DNA from: Hadesarchaea archaeon
GTDB taxonomy: Archaea; Hadarchaeota; Hadarchaeia; Hadarchaeales; Hadarchaeaceae
Reading direction: 5' to 3'
DNA: 11,810 bases
NCBI GenBank assembly: GCA_023129675.1
Contig: JAGMBM010000093.1
Coordinates: 1-11,810 of the forward strand
The notes under the pieces were generated by a model, which did not search any database, had not been told where the DNA came from, and saw nothing but the letters and a program-made list of their open reading frames with translations. A program made the position numbers and the translations under genes. This document shows, piece after piece, positions 2,026 through 11,810 of this stretch (position 1 is its first letter; every line of letters begins with the position of its first letter).

Positions 2026-5000
2026 CTACAGAAAGTCCGCAAGGCTCAGCTGTCGATGGGCGTCGCTCTCGAACATTGATTTTATATCGCGCTGCACCAG
2101 CTTGAGGCGTTGCTCGGTGTAATCACTCGACTCGTAATCGTGCGCTATCTGCATCGCAATCTGCAGGTACTTCTCGACGCCTCCCCGCGTGACCGTGAGG
2201 ATGAGCTTCCCCCCACACCGCGTGCATTGGCCTCTTAGCGGGACGCGGCGATACTTTGAGTTGCAGCCCGTGCATCTGAACTGCTGGCTCGCGAAGGCCC
2301 GCATGTTCCCCTTCAAGTCCGGAATGAAGTGGTGCTCGATGAGTCGCTCGGCAACATCCCGTTCGTCCACAGCCCTAATCTTTCTGGCTAGCCCAAGCTG
2401 CGCCGAAGTCTTTTGCTCCATCGTCTCAAGCGTCTTGTAGCGGCTCGTATGGGGACCGGCCGCGATGTTTCCCGTGTCGAACGAAAACTTCAGTCCCACG
2501 TACTGGGCCTCGCTCCCGAGCCTTCGCTCAACGGTCTCCATGAGCTGCGCCAACTCGCTCGGGCTCGCATAGTGAAGCGTGGCCTCATAGAACTCGAGTG
2601 GGTATCGCTCCATCACATCCATATTATGCGCCTCCTTGTCGATCTCGGTGGGGTCGATGCGGGTGTTCAGGATGAGCGGGGCATCCATCATCCCGCCGCG
2701 CTTCGAGGGCAGGAAGCGCTTGCTGAAGTTGAGTAGCGCATCGAGCAAAAGAATGACCGCATCCTCATCCCCGTCTGCATCTCGTCTCTTTGCCGAGTGG
2801 AAGAAGGGGTGCGCGTAGCCGACATTTGCGTCGGTGAAACCGATGACGCGCCCAACAATGCCCACCGATGTGTGCGGCGCTAAACCGATGACTAAGTGCC
2901 CTGTCAAGTCAGCGGGCCAGCTCGCGTTGTAGTACGGCTTCAACCCATAGAACTTCTGAAGTAGCTCGTCGACGAACTTCGACGCGCGGAGCAAGTACTC
3001 GGCGCACGTGTTCGAGAGAATGATGTCCTGTACCCTGAGCTCAACGAGCTGATCATCCCGCTCCAGCGGCTTCTCCTCCCAATCCCGCTCGTAGCCCAAT
3101 TCGCGTAGCCGTTCCACGGACGTGCCTACTTCCCGCGGCCTGAAGTGGGTGAGCGGGGCATCCGTGGCATCGAATCGCACCGTTCCGTCCTTGAATACGT
3201 AGATGCGGTGCTTCGCCCGCAGGATCCCTTTTTCGATGGGCTCTGGAATTTTATGAGCACTCGTCATGCCCCTGACACCTTTGACCTCCGGCGGCGCTTC
3301 CTCCTGCAACCGCTGCAGTGCTTCATCGAAGAGCGGCTTCAGCTCGACCTTCCGCTGGTCGAAGTATCCTGTGCGGACGTTACATGCGAGGCAACGCTCC
3401 TCTTTTGTCGGACGCTTGCAACGGGGGCATACCCGTGTGTAATTTGCGATCGTCCCGCACTTCGGGCATTTTCGAGTGAAGCCAACGGTCCCGCACTTCG
3501 GGCACTCCAGCCTTGCCACCTCTACATAGATTTCTCCACCTTCGGCTGCCTTTATCACACTACGCGTCGCCCCACCGCGCAAGCTGACAGGGAAAAGCAC
3601 GTGCACCGGGGGTTTCATCAACCGTGGGTTTGCCTTCTCCGGTCTGCCCATCCTACATCCTATACGCGTTGGAGCTTTCCGCTTCACCGGAAACCCAGCC
3701 AAGACCTGAACGATCTCCATGACATCCTTCGATGGATTTGCGCGCAACGTCTCCTCGAGGCGCTCGCTTGTCAAACGCTGCCCATCGAGCAGGCTCAAGC
3801 ACCTGCAGAGGGGAAAAACATGACTCTCAATTAAGACGCATCCATTCTCAACCCTATGCGGCACCCCGAGGACCTCAAGCACTCGCTTAGGTGTTTGATT
3901 CAGAATTAAGCGAAGTCCTTCAAGTTTGCCGTCCTCGAACTTCGGCTCCCCTCCCACCAGCCAGCTGCCCAGTTCTCGGAGCTCCTCGATGCCAATATCG
4001 TGAAAAAGGTATGTGTACGCGGGGTGAAGCGGAACCTCGAATTTCTCAGATAATTCCACCGCCAAGGGTGGAGCGGGCTTCAAGTAGGGGGGTGAAAGGT
4101 AAGAAGATAAGTCTGCGTCGAATTTCTTCCCCGCCAGCGCCCCTTTGACTTCCTGGGCCCACCACTCCTCGCAATAACCGGCTGGCATGAGCGGGTGGTT
4201 GTTCTCGAGAAACTCGCCAAAACCTATGAGGATGTCCCCAAGCGATAAGATCTCGCTGACCCGGTCCCTGAGCTCGAGTGCTTGCTCGACCGAATTCACT
4301 TGAACCACCGAGCCGTCGTCGAGCTTGACGATCGGTCCTTCGATTGAGTCCACGGGCGTTACAGCACCACTTTTACCTGGCCGCTCCATCTTGAGCTGAG
4401 TCCCAATCGCTATGAAATCGTCACATATCGTCATCGCCGCGGGGTGGATGCCAACCGCAGCTATGCCAGTATTCCTTGCGCGCCCGTAGCGAAGCCTGAA
4501 CCCTCCTTCCCGGCTCGGGTGGGAAAAAACGGGCCTGCCCGCAATCACCTCATCCAGATACTTGCTCCCTTTCGGGTAAGCCGGCGCAGCTTCCTCCTTT
4601 GACTGTGCTTTGGAAACCAACTCGGAAAGCCAGCCCCAGCCGTCGATATTCAGCTTGCTCACGTGCTTTATTATCTTCGGCGCCTTCTGAAGGACCCCCT
4701 CCACCAAAGCCAAGATCGCCCCTCCCCGGACGAAGTTGTGCCCTATCCGCTCAAGGTCACGATAGGCGGTTACCGAAATGTCCTTTTCGGTCGGTTCACC
4801 GGTTATCTCTACGGGAATATTGCGCACAGCGGCTCGGATGTCGTCAGGGGATGGGGGAGTGTATTGGAGGTGGGCGATATCGGTGGTATAGAGATCCGTC
4901 TCCTCCACAAATCGCTCGACCTCGTTATCGGTCGGCTTGTAAGGGCCCAAGTACAACTTTCGCCGCACGAAGTCCCCAGTGAGGACGGCGAGCGCAGTTG

Positions 5001-5454
5001 CGGTGCCTCCCGCCGACCTAATCGGGCTGGCGAAGTAAAGCGCGAGATAGGGTGAGCCATCAAAATTTTTCCTTATCTCAACATGGGTTATACCCTCAAG
5101 TGGCGCTATCACAATACCCTCTGTTATTATCGCGAGCGCCGTCCGGACTGCCTGCTCCGCCGCCTGCTGCTCTCGAAATCCTCCAAAGTGGCCATCGACG
5201 ATCATCTCAGCTATTTTTAGAGACAGCTCCTCACGTGACATCGCCTTCTCGAGCTCACGTATCACCTCTGCCACGCCGGGCGGTCCAACGAGTTTCTCGA
5301 CCCTCGAGGCGAGGTCTTCGGCCCTGGGGATTTCCAGTTCCAGCTCTGGGTCATGGCCCAACGCCCGAGCTTTCTTGGCTATCCCGTAGATTTCATTGAT
5401 TTGCCGCTCGATTTCATTGAAGTAAGCTTTTATTTCCTGACTGGCAACCGTCAT
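2026..5454 (-). CDS. polC: DNA polymerase D large subunit (DP2), catalytic polymerase
   Basis: The polymerising subunit of the archaeal replicative polymerase PolD (1142 aa), an RNA-polymerase-like double-psi barrel enzyme. The catalytic motif KRRDADGDEDA places acidic residues at D892, D894 and D896, followed by the conserved LLDALLNFS and the KRGGMMDAPL segment. Zinc sites are visible at C651/C654/C663/C666, C676/C679/C688/C691 and C1061/C1064/C1077/C1080. The N-terminus (YFNEIERQINEIYGIAKKARALGHDP) and GRPEKA (604-609) are typical of the family. The protein ends in QLSLADFL (1135-1142), which fits a PCNA-interacting PIP box. No intein interrupts it, although inteins are common in this gene. 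It forms a complex with DP1, encoded just upstream. The ATG at 5454 is preceded by only weak SD pairing, and a TATA-like site 26 bp upstream suggests a leaderless transcript. An Asp replaces the Asn I expect at the first catalytic position (892). Confidence 0.98.
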   Translation of the reverse strand: MTVASQEIKAYFNEIERQINEIYGIAKKARALGHDPELELEIPRAEDLASRVEKLVGPPGVAEVIRELEKAMSREELSLKIAEMIVDGHFGGFREQQAAEQAVRTALAIITEGIVIAPLEGITHVEIRKNFDGSPYLALYFASPIRSAGGTATALAVLTGDFVRRKLYLGPYKPTDNEVERFVEETDLYTTDIAHLQYTPPSPDDIRAAVRNIPVEITGEPTEKDISVTAYRDLERIGHNFVRGGAILALVEGVLQKAPKIIKHVSKLNIDGWGWLSELVSKAQSKEEAAPAYPKGSKYLDEVIAGRPVFSHPSREGGFRLRYGRARNTGIAAVGIHPAAMTICDDFIAIGTQLKMERPGKSGAVTPVDSIEGPIVKLDDGSVVQVNSVEQALELRDRVSEILSLGDILIGFGEFLENNHPLMPAGYCEEWWAQEVKGALAGKKFDADLSSYLSPPYLKPAPPLAVELSEKFEVPLHPAYTYLFHDIGIEELRELGSWLVGGEPKFEDGKLEGLRLILNQTPKRVLEVLGVPHRVENGCVLIESHVFPLCRCLSLLDGQRLTSERLEETLRANPSKDVMEIVQVLAGFPVKRKAPTRIGCRMGRPEKANPRLMKPPVHVLFPVSLRGGATRSVIKAAEGGEIYVEVARLECPKCGTVGFTRKCPKCGTIANYTRVCPRCKRPTKEERCLACNVRTGYFDQRKVELKPLFDEALQRLQEEAPPEVKGVRGMTSAHKIPEPIEKGILRAKHRIYVFKDGTVRFDATDAPLTHFRPREVGTSVERLRELGYERDWEEKPLERDDQLVELRVQDIILSNTCAEYLLRASKFVDELLQKFYGLKPYYNASWPADLTGHLVIGLAPHTSVGIVGRVIGFTDANVGYAHPFFHSAKRRDADGDEDAVILLLDALLNFSKRFLPSKRGGMMDAPLILNTRIDPTEIDKEAHNMDVMERYPLEFYEATLHYASPSELAQLMETVERRLGSEAQYVGLKFSFDTGNIAAGPHTSRYKTLETMEQKTSAQLGLARKIRAVDERDVAERLIEHHFIPDLKGNMRAFASQQFRCTGCNSKYRRVPLRGQCTRCGGKLILTVTRGGVEKYLQIAMQIAHDYESSDYTEQRLKLVQRDIKSMFESDAHRQLSLADFL

Positions 5455-5645
5455 CTGCTCACTTTAATCTGAATTTTTTTATATCTGATCATTTTGAGCG
5501 CGGGGGCTGGGCAGGAGGCAAAAAATTTCTCTGACCGAGGAGGATTTTCTACCTTCCTTTTAGGTAGCACCCGGCCCCCGCTTCGCTCTGCTAATGTTCC
5601 CCACCAATCCAAGAGCAAATCCGCAGCTTGAGCGAGTTCACGCAA
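5451..5645 (-). CDS. Possible small gene bridging DP1 and DP2 (64 aa), doubtful
   Basis: An open frame starting at TTG 5645, 8 nt inside the 3' end of DP1, and ending with TGA in an ATGA overlap with the DP2 start. AGGGTGA precedes the TTG by 6 nt, so translation is possible. The first 25 or so residues could form an amphipathic helix (LAQAADLLLDWWGTLAE); the rest is basic and shows no family features. Most of the second half coincides with a strong inverted repeat, which argues that the DNA here is selected as RNA or as a signal rather than as protein. I recognise no homologue. The exact fit between the two genes is the only real argument for it. Confidence 0.25.
   Translation of the reverse strand: MRELAQAADLLLDWWGTLAERSGGRVLPKRKVENPPRSEKFFASCPAPALKMIRYKKIQIKVSR
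5477..5484 (-). promoter_or_regulatory. TATA-like box upstream of DP2 (leaderless promoter candidate)
   Basis: ATATAAAA on the - strand, within GATATAAAAAAA, is centred 26 bp before the A of the DP2 ATG. In archaea, transcription starts roughly this far from the TATA centre, so a transcript from here would begin at or next to the start codon. This is inference from spacing and sequence only. Confidence 0.45.
5496..5588. repeat. Long inverted repeat (hairpin) between DP1 and DP2
   Basis: GCGGGGGCTGGG at 5500-5511 pairs with CCCGGCCCCCGC at 5570-5581: 12 bp with one wobble as + strand RNA, or 8 bp plus 3 bp around a C-A mismatch as - strand RNA. GAGC (5496-5499) and GCTC (5585-5588) extend the stem past a 3-nt bulge. 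Inside the 58-nt loop, CTACCT (5549-5554) and AGGTAG (5562-5567) form a second hairpin with a 7-nt loop. It could be a structured untranslated region, a terminator or processing site, or a small RNA. No T run follows it on either strand, and it lacks a tRNA T arm. Confidence 0.7.
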
Positions 5646-7215
5646 AATGAATCACCCTGGCTTGGCGGGTTTGTAGATCGATGATGGGCACGATTCCCGG
5701 CGTGGGATTCACCCCAAGCCGCCGCATGAAAATGGTCTTCTCTTGAAAGGTTCCCGAGTTAACCACTTCCACGTCACGATACCGCTCGTACCCGTAAACG
5801 TGCATGTGGCCGCAGTGAAACACGTCGGGCACCTCTTCTATCACGAGGTAATCCTGCTGCTCCGGCGATATCGCCGTGCGCCCCCCATAGACCGGGGCGA
5901 GGTGCCGCTTCTGCAGGAGTTTGACCATCGGGGGCGTGGATTTCTGCCGGTTCAGCCCGGGCATTGTTGCTATTAAGTCGTCGAAGCTCCTCCCGTGATA
6001 GACCAGAAAATTAACACCGTGAAGGGATACCCACACCGGATTCCCGACCATGACAGAGTTCAGGTCGTAGAGGCCTCCCGCGATATCCTTTTGGATCGCC
6101 GGCTGGGGCTCGGAGGGGCGCACGGCATCGTGGTTCCCGGGTGCTATAATGATGGTGATGTGCTCAGGCACTTGGGCTAAGAGTTTAGCCGCGGCATCGT
6201 ACTGCTTGACTATATCATTGATGAGCAACTCATCCTCCTGCTGGGGGTAAACCCCAACCCCATCGACTATGTCGCCTGCGATCACGAGGTACTTGACCCT
6301 GCTCGCCAGCCCCTGCTGCTTGGCGTTGCCTACCTCACCTCGCAACCAATTCACAAACTTTATGAACGCATCCTCGAGGAACATCTCGCTCCCGACGTGC
6401 AGGTCCGATATCAGCGCCGCACAGACAGGGTCCTCAGCGCGGGAGAACTCGTGTGTGGTGGGCAAGTCAGGCCAGACGATGTCTCTAACGAACAACCTGG
6501 GGGCGCGGTCTCCGCTCCGCACATCCCCCACGATCCCGACTACCTCATCCACGACCACCTCTGCCGCTTTTCGCATGAGCTCCCTCCGGCCCTTGAAGAC
6601 CCACGCCGACGCCCGACCGTTCAAATCTTCTATTTCTAAAACTACGTGCCCCCCCGAGGTCTCCCGCTTATCTGAAACCATCCCGATTACTTTCACCAAT
6701 GCCCTATCCTCGAATCTCCTCAGATTGCTGATCGGAATCGCATCGTGAAAGTCGACGCGCTTTCGGAGGATACTGCTCAAGCGCTCATAACGATCCTTAA
6801 ACACGTTCACAAAGTCCTTCAGCTCCCCCTCCGTGTAGCTCCGCCCGGTGACATCCTTAAGCACCTTGACGCGGGGCTCGAACTCACCAGCCTTCGGTTT
6901 GAATTTGGTGCGGGTGAGCTCGGGTAATTTTTCTATAATTTCTCTCGCTCTGGGTGCCTCCCCCGCTTCAGGCAGGCTCGGTTTGGGTGGGGGAACCGTG
7001 GGCACGGCCTCTGTCTTAGCGCCCTCTCCTTCCAGAATTTTTGTAATGAGATCAGCCGTTACCAGAAAGGGCCTGCTTCCCATTTCTCTAATGCCAACTA
7101 GCACTCGCTCGGCCACGGACTCTGTGTCCTCCCGCCTGCGTAGCGTGTCGAGCGCGTCCGACGTCAGTTGCATGTCCGCATCCATAAATTTGCGAATCAA
7201 AGAGGCGTCGTCCAT
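5638..7215 (-). CDS. polB: DNA polymerase D small subunit (DP1), 3'-5' exonuclease
   Basis: The proofreading subunit of PolD (525 aa), an Mre11-like metallophosphoesterase. All metal-binding motifs are present: D271-L-H273 (LISDLHVGSE), G314-D315 with D318 (AGDIVDG), G360-N-H-D363 (APGNHDA), H407 (YHGRS) and G469-H470-M-H472 (CGHMHVYG), so the nuclease should be active. An OB-fold lies at about 172-250 (ALVKVIGMVSDKRE, then VVLEIEDLNG). The N-terminal 60 residues look like the small helical DP1 domain, joined by a Pro-rich linker at about 70-90. GGAG (7225-7222) overlaps the orc1 stop as TAGGAG and lies 6 nt before the ATG, so translation is probably coupled. Partner: DP2, the next gene downstream. 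It is shorter than my recollection of the Pyrococcus protein, mostly in the linker. Confidence 0.97.
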   Translation of the reverse strand: MDDASLIRKFMDADMQLTSDALDTLRRREDTESVAERVLVGIREMGSRPFLVTADLITKILEGEGAKTEAVPTVPPPKPSLPEAGEAPRAREIIEKLPELTRTKFKPKAGEFEPRVKVLKDVTGRSYTEGELKDFVNVFKDRYERLSSILRKRVDFHDAIPISNLRRFEDRALVKVIGMVSDKRETSGGHVVLEIEDLNGRASAWVFKGRRELMRKAAEVVVDEVVGIVGDVRSGDRAPRLFVRDIVWPDLPTTHEFSRAEDPVCAALISDLHVGSEMFLEDAFIKFVNWLRGEVGNAKQQGLASRVKYLVIAGDIVDGVGVYPQQEDELLINDIVKQYDAAAKLLAQVPEHITIIIAPGNHDAVRPSEPQPAIQKDIAGGLYDLNSVMVGNPVWVSLHGVNFLVYHGRSFDDLIATMPGLNRQKSTPPMVKLLQKRHLAPVYGGRTAISPEQQDYLVIEEVPDVFHCGHMHVYGYERYRDVEVVNSGTFQEKTIFMRRLGVNPTPGIVPIIDLQTRQARVIHFA

Positions 7216-7224
7216 GGAAATCTC

Positions 7225-8508
7225 CTACGCGAGCGTCAGCTGCCGCGGAAGGGAGAGCGCCTCGATGTTGCCGATGGGATGCTCTTCCTGAACTGCCGCC
7301 CTCGCTTGAATCGGCGAGATGTTCAACGTTATCTCTTTGGTCCGCCCGTAGCGACCCTTGCTGATAATCTGGGCATTGATGATCCCTAGCATGTCTAGCT
7401 CAGATATCAAATCGCTGACGCGGCGCTGCGTTAGCACGTCCAACCCGCCCTGCCGGCATAGCGCGCGATAGACGGTGTACACGTCACCCGTCACTATCTT
7501 GTGCGAGTTCCTCTCCGTCAAAAGCACGACACTGAAGAGCACCAATTTCGACTGCGATGGCAACGTTCGAACGACCTCCACCATCTTGTCCTGCTCCATC
7601 TTCTCGAAAGCCCGCCTGACATGGGTCACGGTGACCATCTCCACGTCCTCACGCTCGGCCAGCTCGCCAGCGATGCGAAGCAGGTCGAGAGCCCGCCTGG
7701 CGTCACCGTGTTCCCTCGCCGCGTGGGCCGCGCAGAGTGAGATCACGCCGTCGCCTAGCACGCCGTCAATGTAGCTCATCCCCGCTCGCTTCTCCAATAT
7801 GTCCTTGAGCTGAAGCGCGTTGTATGGAGGGAAAACTATCTCTTCCTCGCCGAGGCTGCTCCGAACGCGGGGGTCCAAGTAACTCATGAAGTTCAGATCG
7901 TTGGAGATGCCCACGATGCTCACCTTCGCCTTCATCAGGTCGGAATTCATGCGGGTCAGATTGTAGAGAACTTCATCACCGCTCTTCAGCACGAGCCTAT
8001 CAATTTCATCCAGTACGATCACCGCGAGCTGTGGGTCGTGGTCGAGCGCCCTGAAGAAACATCTGTAGACTTCATCTGTCGGCCAGCCGGTCATCGGAAC
8101 GCTTTTAGGAAAACCGAGAGAACTTGCGTATCCCGCACTGTAGCGTTTCTTGAGTTTCTCCAGGAAAATGTTTGCCAGCGTCGCGAGAATTCGGTACTGA
8201 GTGTTGACGACCTCGCAGTTCAGGTAAACCACTTCCACCTTGCGCGGCGCACGATCGGCGACGCGTTCGAGCTCTTTCGACACGTGCTTCACGCTAGCTG
8301 TCTTCCCTGTCCCCGTCTTGCCGTAGATGAATAGGTTCGACGGCGTCTCCCCTCTTAAGGGGGCCACAAGTATCCGCGCGAGCTGATGAATCTGCTCACC
8401 CCTGTGTGGTAGTTCCTCGGGCGTGTAGCTCGGTCGCAGATACTCCCGGTTTTTGAATATCGGCCTCGTTTCCAACAGCATGTCGAACAGGCCTTCCGAA
8501 CTCCTCAT
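7225..8508 (-). CDS. cdc6: Orc1/Cdc6 replication initiator and MCM loader
   Basis: AAA+ initiator of 427 aa that binds origin recognition boxes and loads MCM. The Walker A motif is GKTGTGKT (63-70), with K69 and T70; Walker B is VIVLDEID, with D167 and E168; sensor 1 is N203 (GISNDLNF). An arginine is in the usual place after sensor 1 (LDPRVRSSL, R214/R216), and sensor 2 is GDARRALDLLR (R271/R272). The C-terminal winged helix spans roughly 310-400, with the recognition-helix region QRRVSDLISELDMLG and wing GRYGRTK. The start at ATG 8508 is supported by GGAGGT 8 nt upstream. That places the first 113 nt inside the 3' end of the gins gene in another frame. DP1 follows after 9 nt. Its likely target is the candidate origin upstream of mcm. 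Confidence 0.97.
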   Translation of the reverse strand: MRSSEGLFDMLLETRPIFKNREYLRPSYTPEELPHRGEQIHQLARILVAPLRGETPSNLFIYGKTGTGKTASVKHVSKELERVADRAPRKVEVVYLNCEVVNTQYRILATLANIFLEKLKKRYSAGYASSLGFPKSVPMTGWPTDEVYRCFFRALDHDPQLAVIVLDEIDRLVLKSGDEVLYNLTRMNSDLMKAKVSIVGISNDLNFMSYLDPRVRSSLGEEEIVFPPYNALQLKDILEKRAGMSYIDGVLGDGVISLCAAHAAREHGDARRALDLLRIAGELAEREDVEMVTVTHVRRAFEKMEQDKMVEVVRTLPSQSKLVLFSVVLLTERNSHKIVTGDVYTVYRALCRQGGLDVLTQRRVSDLISELDMLGIINAQIISKGRYGRTKEITLNISPIQARAAVQEEHPIGNIEALSLPRQLTLA

Positions 8509-8995
8509 TTTTACCTACCTCCTCTCCTGCCTTCTCAAGGGACTCATTCAATCGCTTGCCCCACATGTCGAGTGTCACGGCCAAGCGATTGATCAGGAAC
8601 CGCTCTTGGGGCGGTATGGGATCGGCCCCCTCTGGGGAAAGTGCAAACCGAAGCAGCTTTGGAATCCTGACTTCCATCAGGGTTGAGACTTGGGTCCGAA
8701 TCTCCTCGGCTTTCTTATGCTCTCCAGCCGCCCGTGCAAATGCTATCTCTTGAGCGACCGATGAATAGAAATCATCTGGAACGGGCGTGAGCTCAAATTC
8801 ACGCTCCTCCGCCAAGAGGAGCTTCCGGAGTTCCATTAGCGTGAGTTTCTGGAGGGGCTCCGCGAACCCGTGACGCTCGAGGACCGCAGCCTCCCACGCC
8901 TCAAGCTCCGTTTCCTCCCCCTCCGCCAGCGGGCCCAGCTGCCTGCCCACCAACTTCATCGCTGGCAAATCCTTAAGGATTCGAACGCGTTTCAT
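8396..8995 (-). CDS. GINS complex subunit, Gins23-like (B-A domain order)
   Basis: A subunit of the GINS complex (199 aa), which activates MCM in the CMG helicase. The N-terminal 47 residues resemble the small B domain (VRILKDLP, a GPLAEGEETEL strand-turn, ERHGFAEP). An alpha-helical A domain follows (LRKLLLAEEREFELTPVPDDFYSSV at about 56-80, with the hallmark DDFY, then long helices to about 155). The B-before-A order matches archaeal Gins23 and eukaryotic Psf2/Psf3; Gins51 has the reverse order. A position beside mcm also fits Gins23, but the DFY-type A domain is close enough to Gins51 to leave some doubt. The ATG abuts the mcm stop (TAA-ATG), and GGTGA 6 nt upstream lies inside mcm. Residues 163-199 overlap the start of orc1 and look like a non-conserved tail. 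Confidence 0.85.
   Translation of the reverse strand: MKRVRILKDLPAMKLVGRQLGPLAEGEETELEAWEAAVLERHGFAEPLQKLTLMELRKLLLAEEREFELTPVPDDFYSSVAQEIAFARAAGEHKKAEEIRTQVSTLMEVRIPKLLRFALSPEGADPIPPQERFLINRLAVTLDMWGKRLNESLEKAGEEVGKNEEFGRPVRHAVGNEADIQKPGVSATELHARGTTTQG
8517..8522 (-). promoter_or_regulatory. Shine-Dalgarno site fixing the orc1/cdc6 start
   Basis: GGAGGT on the - strand (within AGGAGAGGAGGT) lies 8 nt before the ATG at 8508. It is the strongest SD in the cluster and sits inside the gins coding region, so the overlap of the two genes is likely real rather than the result of a start call that is too far upstream. Confidence 0.75.
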
Positions 8996-11002
8996 TTATT
9001 TCACCGCCCGTGCGACCATACCTGGCTTCGGCTCGTACAGGTGCCCCCTTATTTTCTCTTGGTCGATCAGCTCTTCCACGAACTTTGGTCTGATACCCTC
9101 CGACTCGGCGATGCGTTTTATCTCCTCGACCGGCGCCGCCCCGCCGTACTCTCCCTCGAGCCGCTCAATTATATCCAGCACGCGGCGGATGTTATCGCGC
9201 TGGGATTTGGGCTTGCCCGTCATGAGCACGTCGATATCCAGTTTTCCCGTCTCGGTGTCGATTCCAGCCTCCTGCAAGGAGCGCTTGATGAGATTGATTG
9301 CACGGTTTGCGTCCTCAACGGTCACGCGATCGCTCAGCCTCATTCGGGTGTTCGCCTTCGCCAGCCGCACAATGGCCTCGAGCTGCCTCACCGTGATCGG
9401 GAGCGGTGCCTCGCCTCGCTCGGCCACCCTCCTCCAATCGACGAAGAAATCCTCGATTGTCTTCATGGCCTCCTTGTCATCAAATTTCGGATCGAGGTTC
9501 TGGCGCGCGTAGATGATGATTTTACGCAGGAAATCCAAGTCGAGGGGCGGCTTGACCACCTTCGTGGGGGCGCGGTGTAGTTCTAGAATGTAGTGGGCCA
9601 TGGTCCGATCTTGGTCGGCGCGTGGTTCGTCGCGCATGATAAAAACCAAGTCGAATCTTGAGAGGATCACGGGATCTAGGGGGACTTGCTGTGCGATTGT
9701 GAGGTTCTTCTCAAATCTGCCGTATTTTGGGTTGGCTGCCGCGAGCACAGCGGTGCGAGTGTTGAGAGTTGCGACGATGCCCGCCTTGGCCACGCTGATC
9801 GTCTGCTGCTCCAACGATTCTAAAATTGCGTTCGAATCCTCTGATCTCATTTTCTCGAACTCGTCGATGCTGGCCAAACCGCCGTCTGCTATCACAAGGG
9901 CCCCAGCCTCGAGGGCCCACCCACCACTTATCTCATCGCGGACTGCCGCAGCCGTAAGGCCGGCACCCGTGGCCTTCATACCGGAGGTGTAAAGACCGCG
10001 AGGGGCAACGTTCGCGGCCCATTTCAGGATTTGACTCTTCGCAACACCCGGGTCACCTGTGAGGAGAACATGGGTATCGCCTCGAATTCTCGTTCCATCA
10101 TGCAAATCAATTGCCTCGCAGCCGAATAGCTGTAGCGCAACCGCCTCCTTGATCGCGTCATGCCCATAGATGCTCGGAGCAATTGACTGGATGATCTTGT
10201 TTCTGATCCAAGGGTCCTTCGCAAGCTCCTTAATTTGGGCCTTGTCCTCCGGGGTCAGCTCGGCCTCCTCGACACCTTTCTGCAGGACCTCGATGTGGCT
10301 GATGAATAATATCTTCCGAAACGTCTTCTTGCGCTCCTGGCGCCTGCCCTCCTGAAAGACGCGCAGCACGCCCGTCAACATCACATGGTTCCCCGGCACC
10401 GCCTTGTCGACAAAATCATCCCTGACTATTCCATCCAACCTTCGGGGCATCCGGCCGCCGCGCAGCTTCTCGGGGGGCTCCTGTATGCACATGCTCTGCC
10501 AGTCGCGGAACTCCGAGCTCTCGATCACGAGGTCGAATGGGCCCTTCTTGCCGCAGTTGGGATTTTCACACACAAGAGGCTCCCTGAAGAACTCACCAAC
10601 CTGAAGTACCTTATTTTTCTCGCCACAACGCCTGCATTTGAATACCGCCTCCGTCGCCTCAGGCTTCACCTCGCCCGACCGCGTCAGGATCCCCTCGACC
10701 TGGATGAACTTGCCCACGTGCCCAGCGCGAATCTTGCGGATTTCTACGGACTTATCGAGTCCCATCACTCGCAAGCGCATTCCGGGAAGCTTCGTTATCC
10801 CTCCCAAAATTTCGTCTGCCGTGTCGAGGAAATCTACTGGATTATCGAGCAAGCTTTTTGCGAGCTCCATGTCAAACTCTAGGAGCTGGTCGAACGCAAT
10901 GAGGAGCGACTTCCGCCCTTCCCTCGCTATCCTGCGTAGCTCCTTGAGGATCTCCCTGCGGTGCAGGAACTCCTCTAGCCTCTCTTTAGCCTTAGGCTCC
11001 AA
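8996..11002 (-). CDS. mcm: MCM replicative helicase
   Basis: Minichromosome maintenance helicase of 668 aa, a homohexameric 3'-5' DNA helicase. The N-terminal domain carries a zinc site at C123, C126, C145 and C150 (CRRCGE, then CENPNC). The AAA+ core has Walker A GDPGVAKS (316-323, K322), Walker B with D380 and E381 (ASIDEFEKM), sensor 1 N424 (AAANPKYGRF), arginine finger R449 (LSRFD) and sensor 2 R539 (PITVRQLEA). The C-terminal 70 or so residues fit the winged helix (IRRVLDIIERLEGEYGG). The length is typical and there is no intein. The start is TTG at 11002, preceded by GGGGTGAG (11015-11008) at 5-6 nt; the N-terminus MEPKAKERLEEFL is plausible. It is the first gene of the replication cluster and runs directly into gins. 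Confidence 0.98.
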   Translation of the reverse strand: MEPKAKERLEEFLHRREILKELRRIAREGRKSLLIAFDQLLEFDMELAKSLLDNPVDFLDTADEILGGITKLPGMRLRVMGLDKSVEIRKIRAGHVGKFIQVEGILTRSGEVKPEATEAVFKCRRCGEKNKVLQVGEFFREPLVCENPNCGKKGPFDLVIESSEFRDWQSMCIQEPPEKLRGGRMPRRLDGIVRDDFVDKAVPGNHVMLTGVLRVFQEGRRQERKKTFRKILFISHIEVLQKGVEEAELTPEDKAQIKELAKDPWIRNKIIQSIAPSIYGHDAIKEAVALQLFGCEAIDLHDGTRIRGDTHVLLTGDPGVAKSQILKWAANVAPRGLYTSGMKATGAGLTAAAVRDEISGGWALEAGALVIADGGLASIDEFEKMRSEDSNAILESLEQQTISVAKAGIVATLNTRTAVLAAANPKYGRFEKNLTIAQQVPLDPVILSRFDLVFIMRDEPRADQDRTMAHYILELHRAPTKVVKPPLDLDFLRKIIIYARQNLDPKFDDKEAMKTIEDFFVDWRRVAERGEAPLPITVRQLEAIVRLAKANTRMRLSDRVTVEDANRAINLIKRSLQEAGIDTETGKLDIDVLMTGKPKSQRDNIRRVLDIIERLEGEYGGAAPVEEIKRIAESEGIRPKFVEELIDQEKIRGHLYEPKPGMVARAVK

Positions 11003-11049
11003 AATTTCTCACCCCAACCGACAGCGGTGAAATGAAGAGGTCGTGAAAC

Positions 11050-11057
11050 GTATTTAG
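11050..11057 (-). promoter_or_regulatory. TATA-like box for the mcm operon
   Basis: CTAAATAC on the - strand is centred about 51 bp before the TTG start of mcm. Transcription starting about 26 bp downstream would give a 25-nt leader holding the GGGGTGAG Shine-Dalgarno site. It is a moderate match to the archaeal TATA consensus, and no better candidate lies nearby. Confidence 0.35.
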
Positions 11058-11374
11058 GGAGTGTGGTGAAAATTTTGAACTTTGAGCTTAAAGTCTGAGA
11101 AACTTTTGCGCACATCCTAAAACTATCTATGTCACAATTTTTCACCTCCAAGAAACTGGACGAACTAGCGCAAAACGGTGGTTTTGGTGCTTTTATTCGA
11201 ATATGCACTTTTATTCCCCCAATAAAACCTAAAAGGAGATTTTTTGAAGTCATTTTTGGGGAGAGGTCACCGAAAGTATTCCCAATCTCAAATTCCCGGG
11301 TTTGCACAGTTTATTTTCAAAATAGCTCTAAAAAAGCGGATATTCTTCAAAACACCATTTTATTTTCCGAGTTC

Positions 11375-11403
11375 GAGTGGAAACAGTCGAAAACAGTGGA
11401 AAC
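11375..11403 (+). repeat. Tandem ORB-core-like repeats (GAGTGGAAAC / CAGTGGAAAC)
   Basis: GAGTGGAAAC at 11375-11384 and CAGTGGAAAC at 11394-11403 are direct repeats 19 bp apart, with a degenerate middle copy CAGTCGAAAAC at 11384-11394, giving a period near 9.5 bp. CAGTGGAAAC is the core I recall for origin recognition boxes of Pyrococcus and haloarchaea. The G-string that completes a full ORB is not seen downstream, so these would be mini-ORB-type sites. Confidence 0.55.
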
Positions 11404-11468
11404 ATAGGTCTAAAGCTTCGAGTTCTGGGTTAAGTTCCAATTTTAAATCGGGAGACGCCTTTTGTGTA

Positions 11469-11810
11469 CTAGGGTATTTTCACGTATTCATAGGCTTCAG
11501 TAGCCGACTCAAAACAGTAATGAACCCGCTGATAACCGCGCCTGAACCCGGCCACATCGGCTGCCACGCGCTCGGTCTCCTCTTTATCGATGATCACCCG
11601 CTTGATGAACTCCGCTATCTCCTCCATCTCGCGCTCCTTCATGCCGAGCCGCGTCACCTCGGAGGTCCCCAGCCTTATCCCGCCCGGATTTTTATAGTGT
11701 CGCCCCTCGCGGATGTCCCATGGTAGCAGGTTGCGGTTTAATATGATGTTGGCCTTTTCCAGCCGCTGCTCCAAAGCCCCCCCGTCCCCGTACTTGGTGA
11801 TGTCGACGAC
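11469..11810 (-). CDS. glyA: Serine hydroxymethyltransferase, C-terminal part (partial)
   Basis: The C-terminal 113 residues of SHMT, the PLP enzyme that interconverts serine and glycine with transfer of a one-carbon unit to a pterin carrier. The frame is open to the right edge of the window and begins VVDITKYGDGGALEQRL; the TTG at 11774 is an internal Leu codon. NIILNRNLLPWD and GGIRLGTSEVTRLGM are SHMT signatures; the Arg of GGIRLGT corresponds to the residue that binds the substrate carboxylate. The PLP-binding Lys lies upstream, outside the window. It ends with TAG at 11469-11471. The gene is on the same strand as the replication cluster, but the 466-bp gap and the mcm promoter suggest a separate transcription unit. 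Confidence 0.95.
   Translation of the reverse strand, partial: VVDITKYGDGGALEQRLEKANIILNRNLLPWDIREGRHYKNPGGIRLGTSEVTRLGMKEREMEEIAEFIKRVIIDKEETERVAADVAGFRRGYQRVHYCFESATEAYEYVKIP

Follow-up and report, generated by a model that had tools for sequence, protein, structure and literature searches.

Tandem ORB-like repeats before a Hadesarchaea mcm operon: probably an operator region rather than the primary origin

Genes and repeats of the mcm gap

The window, i.e. the whole stretch of 11,810 nucleotides that was analysed, is the entire contig C239 of a Hadesarchaea genome assembly (G000; 975,796 bases, 245 contigs, 79% complete). The genes on its minus strand follow the order glyA (cut), mcm, gins23, orc1/cdc6, DP1 and DP2, with a gap of 466 bp between glyA and mcm.

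2026..5454, minus strand: DP2, large subunit of PolD (NF003103)
5638..7215, minus strand: DP1, small subunit of PolD (NF003118)
7225..8508, minus strand: orc1/cdc6, Orc1-1-type initiator (NF001625; 2qby_A, 2v1u_A)
8396..8995, minus strand: gins23, open frame (NF053565, E 1.4e-12, under the cut-off); its 3' end overlaps the orc1 frame
8996..11002, minus strand: mcm (NF040949, 794 bits, under its cut-off of 940)
11050..11077, minus strand: second conserved block, CAAAATTTTCAC then CCCTAAATAC (conservation 0.84 for 11066-11077)
11236..11259, minus strand: BRE/TATA-like stretch following the box (from position counts at 67 sites), with a weak form in this genome
11260..11277, minus strand: promoter-like box ACTTTCGGTGACCTCTCC, the most strongly conserved element in the gap (conservation 0.96)
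11300..11309, minus strand: CTGTGCAAAC, the inverted copy of the original prediction (2 mismatches; conservation 0.67 against a mean of 0.63)
11310..11374, no strand: AT-rich spacer (72% A+T)
11375..11384, plus strand: ORB-core copy GAGTGGAAAC (conservation 0.88)
11384..11393, plus strand: degenerate middle copy CAGTCGAAAA, partly changed in relatives
11394..11403, plus strand: ORB-core copy CAGTGGAAAC (conservation 0.89), with a spacing of 19 bp to the first copy
11469..11810, minus strand: glyA, 3' part only, truncated at the end of the contig (NF000586)

The original prediction placed origin recognition box (ORB)-like repeats near an initiator gene, and orc1 is indeed the third gene of the operon. 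Its product has Sulfolobus Cdc6-1 (2qby_A, E 7.6e-107) and Aeropyrum Orc1 (2v1u_A, E 2.9e-94) as best PDB matches, and the winged-helix stretch is well kept. A second Orc1/Cdc6 of the genome (G000:C44, L163:912-2108, minus strand) is closest to Pyrobaculum Cdc6 (1fnn) and is a candidate regulator. In four relatives (G009, G011, G022 and G025) mcm matches its profile in two pieces within single frames of more than 1000 amino acids, likely due to inteins; the G009 frame contains a LAGLIDADG_3 match. An Rfam search of positions 10900-11810 at E values up to 5 gave no match.

Letters and coordinates of the tandem at 11375-11403, including the degenerate copy between the outer ones, were confirmed, and the repeats match the consensus of the ORB core. 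A genome-wide motif scan, proposed earlier as a check, is uninformative for lone copies, which occur at chance level, whereas the tandem arrangement is above chance. With up to 2 mismatches the core has 10 matches in the window against 9.3 expected, and the 975,796 bases of the genome contain a single exact CAGTGGAAAC, the same number as for its reversed control. Among first-order Markov copies, none of 4000 gaps and none of 300 windows contained a pair on one strand within 30 bp and with no more than 1 mismatch.

The tandem is also kept in the family. Sixteen gaps were aligned and scored on 8 genus representatives (mean column 0.63), with G003, G005 and G009 left out and G015, G020 and G021 aligned but unscored. 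The most conserved 12-mers of the gap are CTTTCGGTGACC (0.96), TTCCACTGTTTT (0.89), TGTTTCCACTCG (0.88) and CAAAATTTTCAC (0.84), so ranked that the tandem cores take second and third place among the representatives. The same alignment does not sustain the opposite-strand copy. Its letters and position are correct, but it is a chance-level match without conservation, altered in most relatives (CTGTGT, CTGTAT, CTGCTA, TTTTAA), and probably a chance match. The AT-rich stretch between the copies is real and its excess modest (72% A+T; the gap mean is 62%). Windows of 60 bp across the gap have an average of 62% and a maximum of 75%, in the one beginning at 11306, so that the spacer is the AT-rich part of an AT-rich gap.

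A strict pair, TTTCCMCT-N1..14-TTTCCMCT, was scanned in 31 genomes. Exactly one match each was obtained in 12 of the 19 genomes of family f1, in all 12 inside the mcm gap by coordinates. In these 19 genomes the reversed pattern matched 7 times, and the evidence is therefore the common location and not the count. The remaining f1 genomes have diverged copies (G009, G010, G016, G017) or no readable gap (G004, G013, G018), and in f3 genomes no TTTCC[AC]CT copy occurs within 700 bp of mcm. The direct copies are about 10 bp apart, with three copies in G015 and G019; in G015, G019 and G009 the array reads TTCCACTG..TTCCACTGG, which is the full dyad core. The G-run of full ORBs is absent from the array, which has only the core at 11375-11403.

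The inverted ORB pair and the predicted origin

Inverted boxes flanking an unwinding element had been proposed for the mcm gap. This layout is not supported there: the inverted arm is unconserved, the G-run is absent, and the classical arrangement lies at another gap in all 18 loci that were read. The pattern TTCCAGTGGAAACNNAGGGG, assumed here to represent the full ORB, gave 19 matches at up to 2 mismatches in 15 of the 31 genomes, against 3 for the reversed control; 17 of the 19 fall within 13 Hadarchaeota genomes, and G000 has none at this threshold. The 18 Hadarchaeota loci comprise those 13 and five reached otherwise (our own C113, G007, G019, G020 and G021). Each has an inverted ORB pair with G-run (up to 5 mismatches) at a gap other than that of mcm. 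On C113 the pair lies at 1060-1079 on the minus strand (3 mismatches) and 1244-1263 on the plus strand (5 mismatches); these full ORBs carry the variant core TTCCACAGGAAA, which the array does not follow. A tyrS-like gene is located on the same stretch in 17 of the 18 loci (none was found in G019; that of G022 has 41% identity and the opposite orientation), and PF00579 was confirmed in all three tyrS-like genes tested. The f3 genomes retain the pair as well. Where it shares a contig with the mcm gap, the distance is about 5 kb (G023, G024, G025), 6-7 kb (G009, G015, G019, G022), 7.6 kb (G005), 10-11.5 kb (G001, G007, G008) or 33 kb (G010). We predict that the ORB pair of the tyrS gap is the chromosomal origin, and the mcm gap is probably not the primary one. 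In a literature search limited to titles and abstract openings no Hadesarchaea replication origin was found.

Skew analysis, another check proposed earlier, was carried out on relatives only and gave a divided result: the three significant keto change points all lie at the ORB pair and not at the mcm gap, while GC minima are mixed. The best keto change point of each of 7 contigs was judged against a block-permutation null. It was significant on those of G015, G023 and G019, at +1162, +51 and -1277 bp from the ORB pair and at 7310, 4823 and 5296 bp from the mcm gap, respectively; G009, G010, G001 and G008 gave no significant point by this null. The raw GC-skew minimum is within 2.4 kb of the ORB pair in G019, G009 and G008 (in the last near the contig end) and distant from both sites on G015, G023 and G001. 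Gene orientation also shifts skew, and its behaviour at the ORB pair is support, not proof.

The mcm gap might still be an origin, alone or as one half of a bipartite origin with the tyrS-gap ORBs, in which Orc1 would open the AT-rich spacer. We regard this as unlikely. It would account for the ORB-like array, the spacer and the orc1 gene in the operon, and two minima are nearer the mcm gap than the ORB pair, namely the cumulative keto minimum of G019:C4 at 104,780 (best change point 112,360) and the GC-skew minimum of G010 at 27,813 (mcm gap at 22,080, ORB pair at about 55,000). Opposed to it are the lack of a conserved inverted arm and of a G-run, the position of the significant keto change points 4.8-7.3 kb away and within 1.3 kb of the ORB pair, and the f3 genomes, which keep the pair but have no TTTCC[AC]CT within 700 bp of mcm. 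Initiator boxes in front of the replication operon are upheld; the origin claim attached to them probably is not.

Readings of the tandem array

We consider it fairly likely that the array serves as a tandem mini-ORB operator within the mcm-gins23-orc1-polD promoter region and not as a primary origin. This reading is supported by the conserved tandem and its 19-bp spacing, the ORB-type initiator encoded in the operon and the full inverted ORBs elsewhere; since the copies are direct, without G-run and beside a promoter, a weaker regulatory site is the simplest interpretation. The Orc1 of the operon would bind here, probably less tightly than at the full ORBs of oriC, and would tune the operon from which it is made, as DnaA boxes do at dnaA. 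Such control by Orc1 is plausible. Between the array and mcm, a second protein may act at the ACTTTCGGTGACC box and so connect radA, nurA, RPA and a Hel308-like gene with the operon. Counting against an operator are the lack of excess in the count of strict pairs, the seven f1 genomes without such a pair, the large distance of this box from the mcm start and, for this genome, its weak TATA-like letters. The array might additionally take part in initiation. These functional statements are all drawn from sequence comparison.

The direct copies, the missing G-run and the position before a promoter would suit a transcription factor other than Orc1 binding TTTCCACT, with the ORB-core likeness a coincidence, and it fits such a factor that the array does not share the TTCCACAGGAAA variant of the genome's own full ORBs. 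This is quite improbable in view of the full dyad core TTCCACTG..TTCCACTGG in G015, G019 and G009 and the location before an operon that encodes Orc1. Very improbable is a third possibility, that the main effect of the array is to titrate Orc1 away from the origin nearby and not to regulate transcription: Haloarcula provides a precedent, a separate ORB cluster that controls oriC2 negatively (PMC3936714, in excerpt), but the present array has only two or three copies and is sited in a promoter region.

Known origins offer partial parallels to the favoured operator reading. In Pyrococcus abyssi cdc6 lies with DP1 and DP2 at oriC (PMC2643942, in excerpt), and the Thermococcus kodakarensis origin contains a full ORB and mini-ORBs (PMC5663688, in excerpt). 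Similar to these Thermococcales origins, as far as the excerpts describe them, ORB-type boxes here adjoin a cluster with orc1 and PolD genes; unlike them, the operon has only direct mini-ORB-like copies and the full inverted ORBs are elsewhere. In Haloarcula an ORB cluster exerts negative control, and autoregulation of DnaA is cited in the same excerpted report (PMC3936714). The ORB-rich region of oriC2D in Haloarcula hispanica resembles the array, in that excerpt, as a proposed control element with ORB copies apart from the origin, whereas the copies described here precede mcm and orc1 and stand beside a promoter-like box. The favoured reading sets initiator boxes for control apart from those for initiation, and it shifts the predicted chromosomal origin of an uncultured archaeal phylum off the tempting site beside mcm.

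A promoter-like box and a LAGLIDADG-fold ORF at the predicted origin

More surprising than the repeats or the origin claim are the box and an ORF at the predicted origin. The box ACTTTCGGTGACCTCTCC, absent from the original prediction, matches 162 times across the 19 f1 genomes when up to 3 mismatches are allowed, against 38 times for the reversed control, and 15 times against 2 in G022 (f2). There is no excess in the four f3 genomes (8 against 29) and no match in G015. An order-wide regulon was rejected: f3 has a variant before mcm in three of four genomes that is hardly dispersed, and G015 lacks a match. The 67 distinct sites gathered here are a selection from the total, not a full count. 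Letters beyond the search pattern are kept (of the 67 sites, 64 have A at -3, 65 have T at -1, 57 have C at +18 and 54 have C at +19), and A-rich and CTTAAA-like letters follow at fixed spacing. On these grounds the box looks like a promoter element. Most predicted starts are 20-60 nt downstream; mcm is an exception, with the box 217-256 nt before the start, and the second block at 11050-11077 is a possible nearer mcm promoter.

Genes after the box were classed by Pfam, NCBIfam or BLAST cluster, where not every cluster member was scanned individually. By this classification 22 of the 67 sites precede replication or recombination genes (NurA-type 5, radA 4, mcm 4, an origin-side primase-like gene 7, RPA 1, and 1 Hel308-like gene, which carries an intein), 12 precede LAGLIDADG genes (one apparently broken, L263), 10 precede mobile genes (TnpB 8, IS200 TnpA 1, DDE transposase 1), one precedes a radical-SAM gene adjoining an nreA-like gene, and 22 are unclassified or geneless. 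Of the 12 main RadA loci of f1 with upstream sequence, 11 carry the box with no more than 3 mismatches, the exception being G015; a copy that differs at 5 positions stands at radA of the f2 genome G022. No box occurs at those RadA paralogue loci that were read, and RadA was not found in G000. LAGLIDADG_3 was scanned in six genomes, with frames under 700 amino acids taken as free-standing and 4 longer intein-like frames dropped. A same-strand upstream box, counted by eye, is present at 10 of 12 free-standing genes in G000, G001, G009 and G012; the two without it are on G009:C15 and G012:C84. G015 has no free-standing gene of this kind. In G023, where the box regulon is absent, long frames account for most of the 10 matches.

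The box begins with ACTTTC, which would fit the DNA-damage response element ANTTTC of Sulfolobus, bound by Orc1-2 (PMC9738581, in excerpt), and it precedes recombination genes; the fit of so short a hexamer may be coincidence. At 18 bp the box is far longer than that element.

In 11 relatives (G009, G014, G015, G016, G019, G020, G021, G023, G024, G025 and G026) the stretch between the inverted ORBs contains a LAGLIDADG-fold ORF of about 110-140 codons (for example L193:10938-11273 and L194:10408-10740, plus nine other loci), and the ORB encodes its closing residues (L/F)(Q/E)WKxR. PF00961 matched 8 of 9 aligned members at E up to 1 (best 6.3e-9) and did not match the modelled member. The model (pLDDT 89.7) resembles in fold the single-motif homing endonucleases I-TnaI (Foldseek E 3.0e-6) and I-Vdi141I (E 7.2e-6). 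Unlike those enzymes, the ORF is placed within a predicted chromosomal origin, between its ORBs, and the last motif residue is acidic in only 1 of 9 aligned members, or 2 of 11 counting G020 and G021. The protein is mostly without the catalytic acid and may be mostly catalytically dead. Among 61 genomes strong matches occurred only in those 11, one each, with weak ones in G014, G021 and G058. A search of 5.8 billion proteins gave 19 matches, one of which NCBI names LAGLIDADG family homing endonuclease, from Hadarchaeales. A limited literature search found no earlier description of an origin enclosing a LAGLIDADG ORF that overlaps an ORB.

We tentatively suggest that the family may run an SOS-like circuit, which we consider somewhat short of probable. 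One box would join the replication operon (mcm, GINS, Orc1, PolD), radA, nurA, RPA, the Hel308-like helicase and the origin-side primase-like gene; free-standing LAGLIDADG endonucleases and TnpB would have adopted it, and in relatives a LAGLIDADG-derived, mostly dead protein would be encoded inside the origin, sharing coding letters with an ORB. Mobile nucleases would thereby be wired into host control of replication and recombination, at the promoter and at the origin. The common box is a candidate archaeal replication-recombination regulon and a possible way for mobile nucleases to time expression.

The seven of the 18 loci without the LAGLIDADG ORF are our own and those of G001, G005, G007, G008, G010 and G022. 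A gene of about 190 codons adjoins the left ORB in exactly these seven (for example L206:481-1050, L198:12840-13403 and L204:11977-12588). The origin-side YYRRLD protein under the box (L198:11931-12743, minus strand, and homologues) has no Pfam or NCBIfam name and is primase-like by model (pLDDT 67), with weak matches to LigD-polymerase/primase structures (E 1.4e-4, TM about 0.5). Imperfect palindromes begin about 25-29 bp inside the left ORB at many tyrS-gap loci; they were set aside, as their scores differ widely. At several TnpB/IS sites, such as L157 and L158, a GC-rich hairpin ending in GGGAGGGGATGA.. stands directly before the box and resembles an element end or a guide-RNA scaffold.
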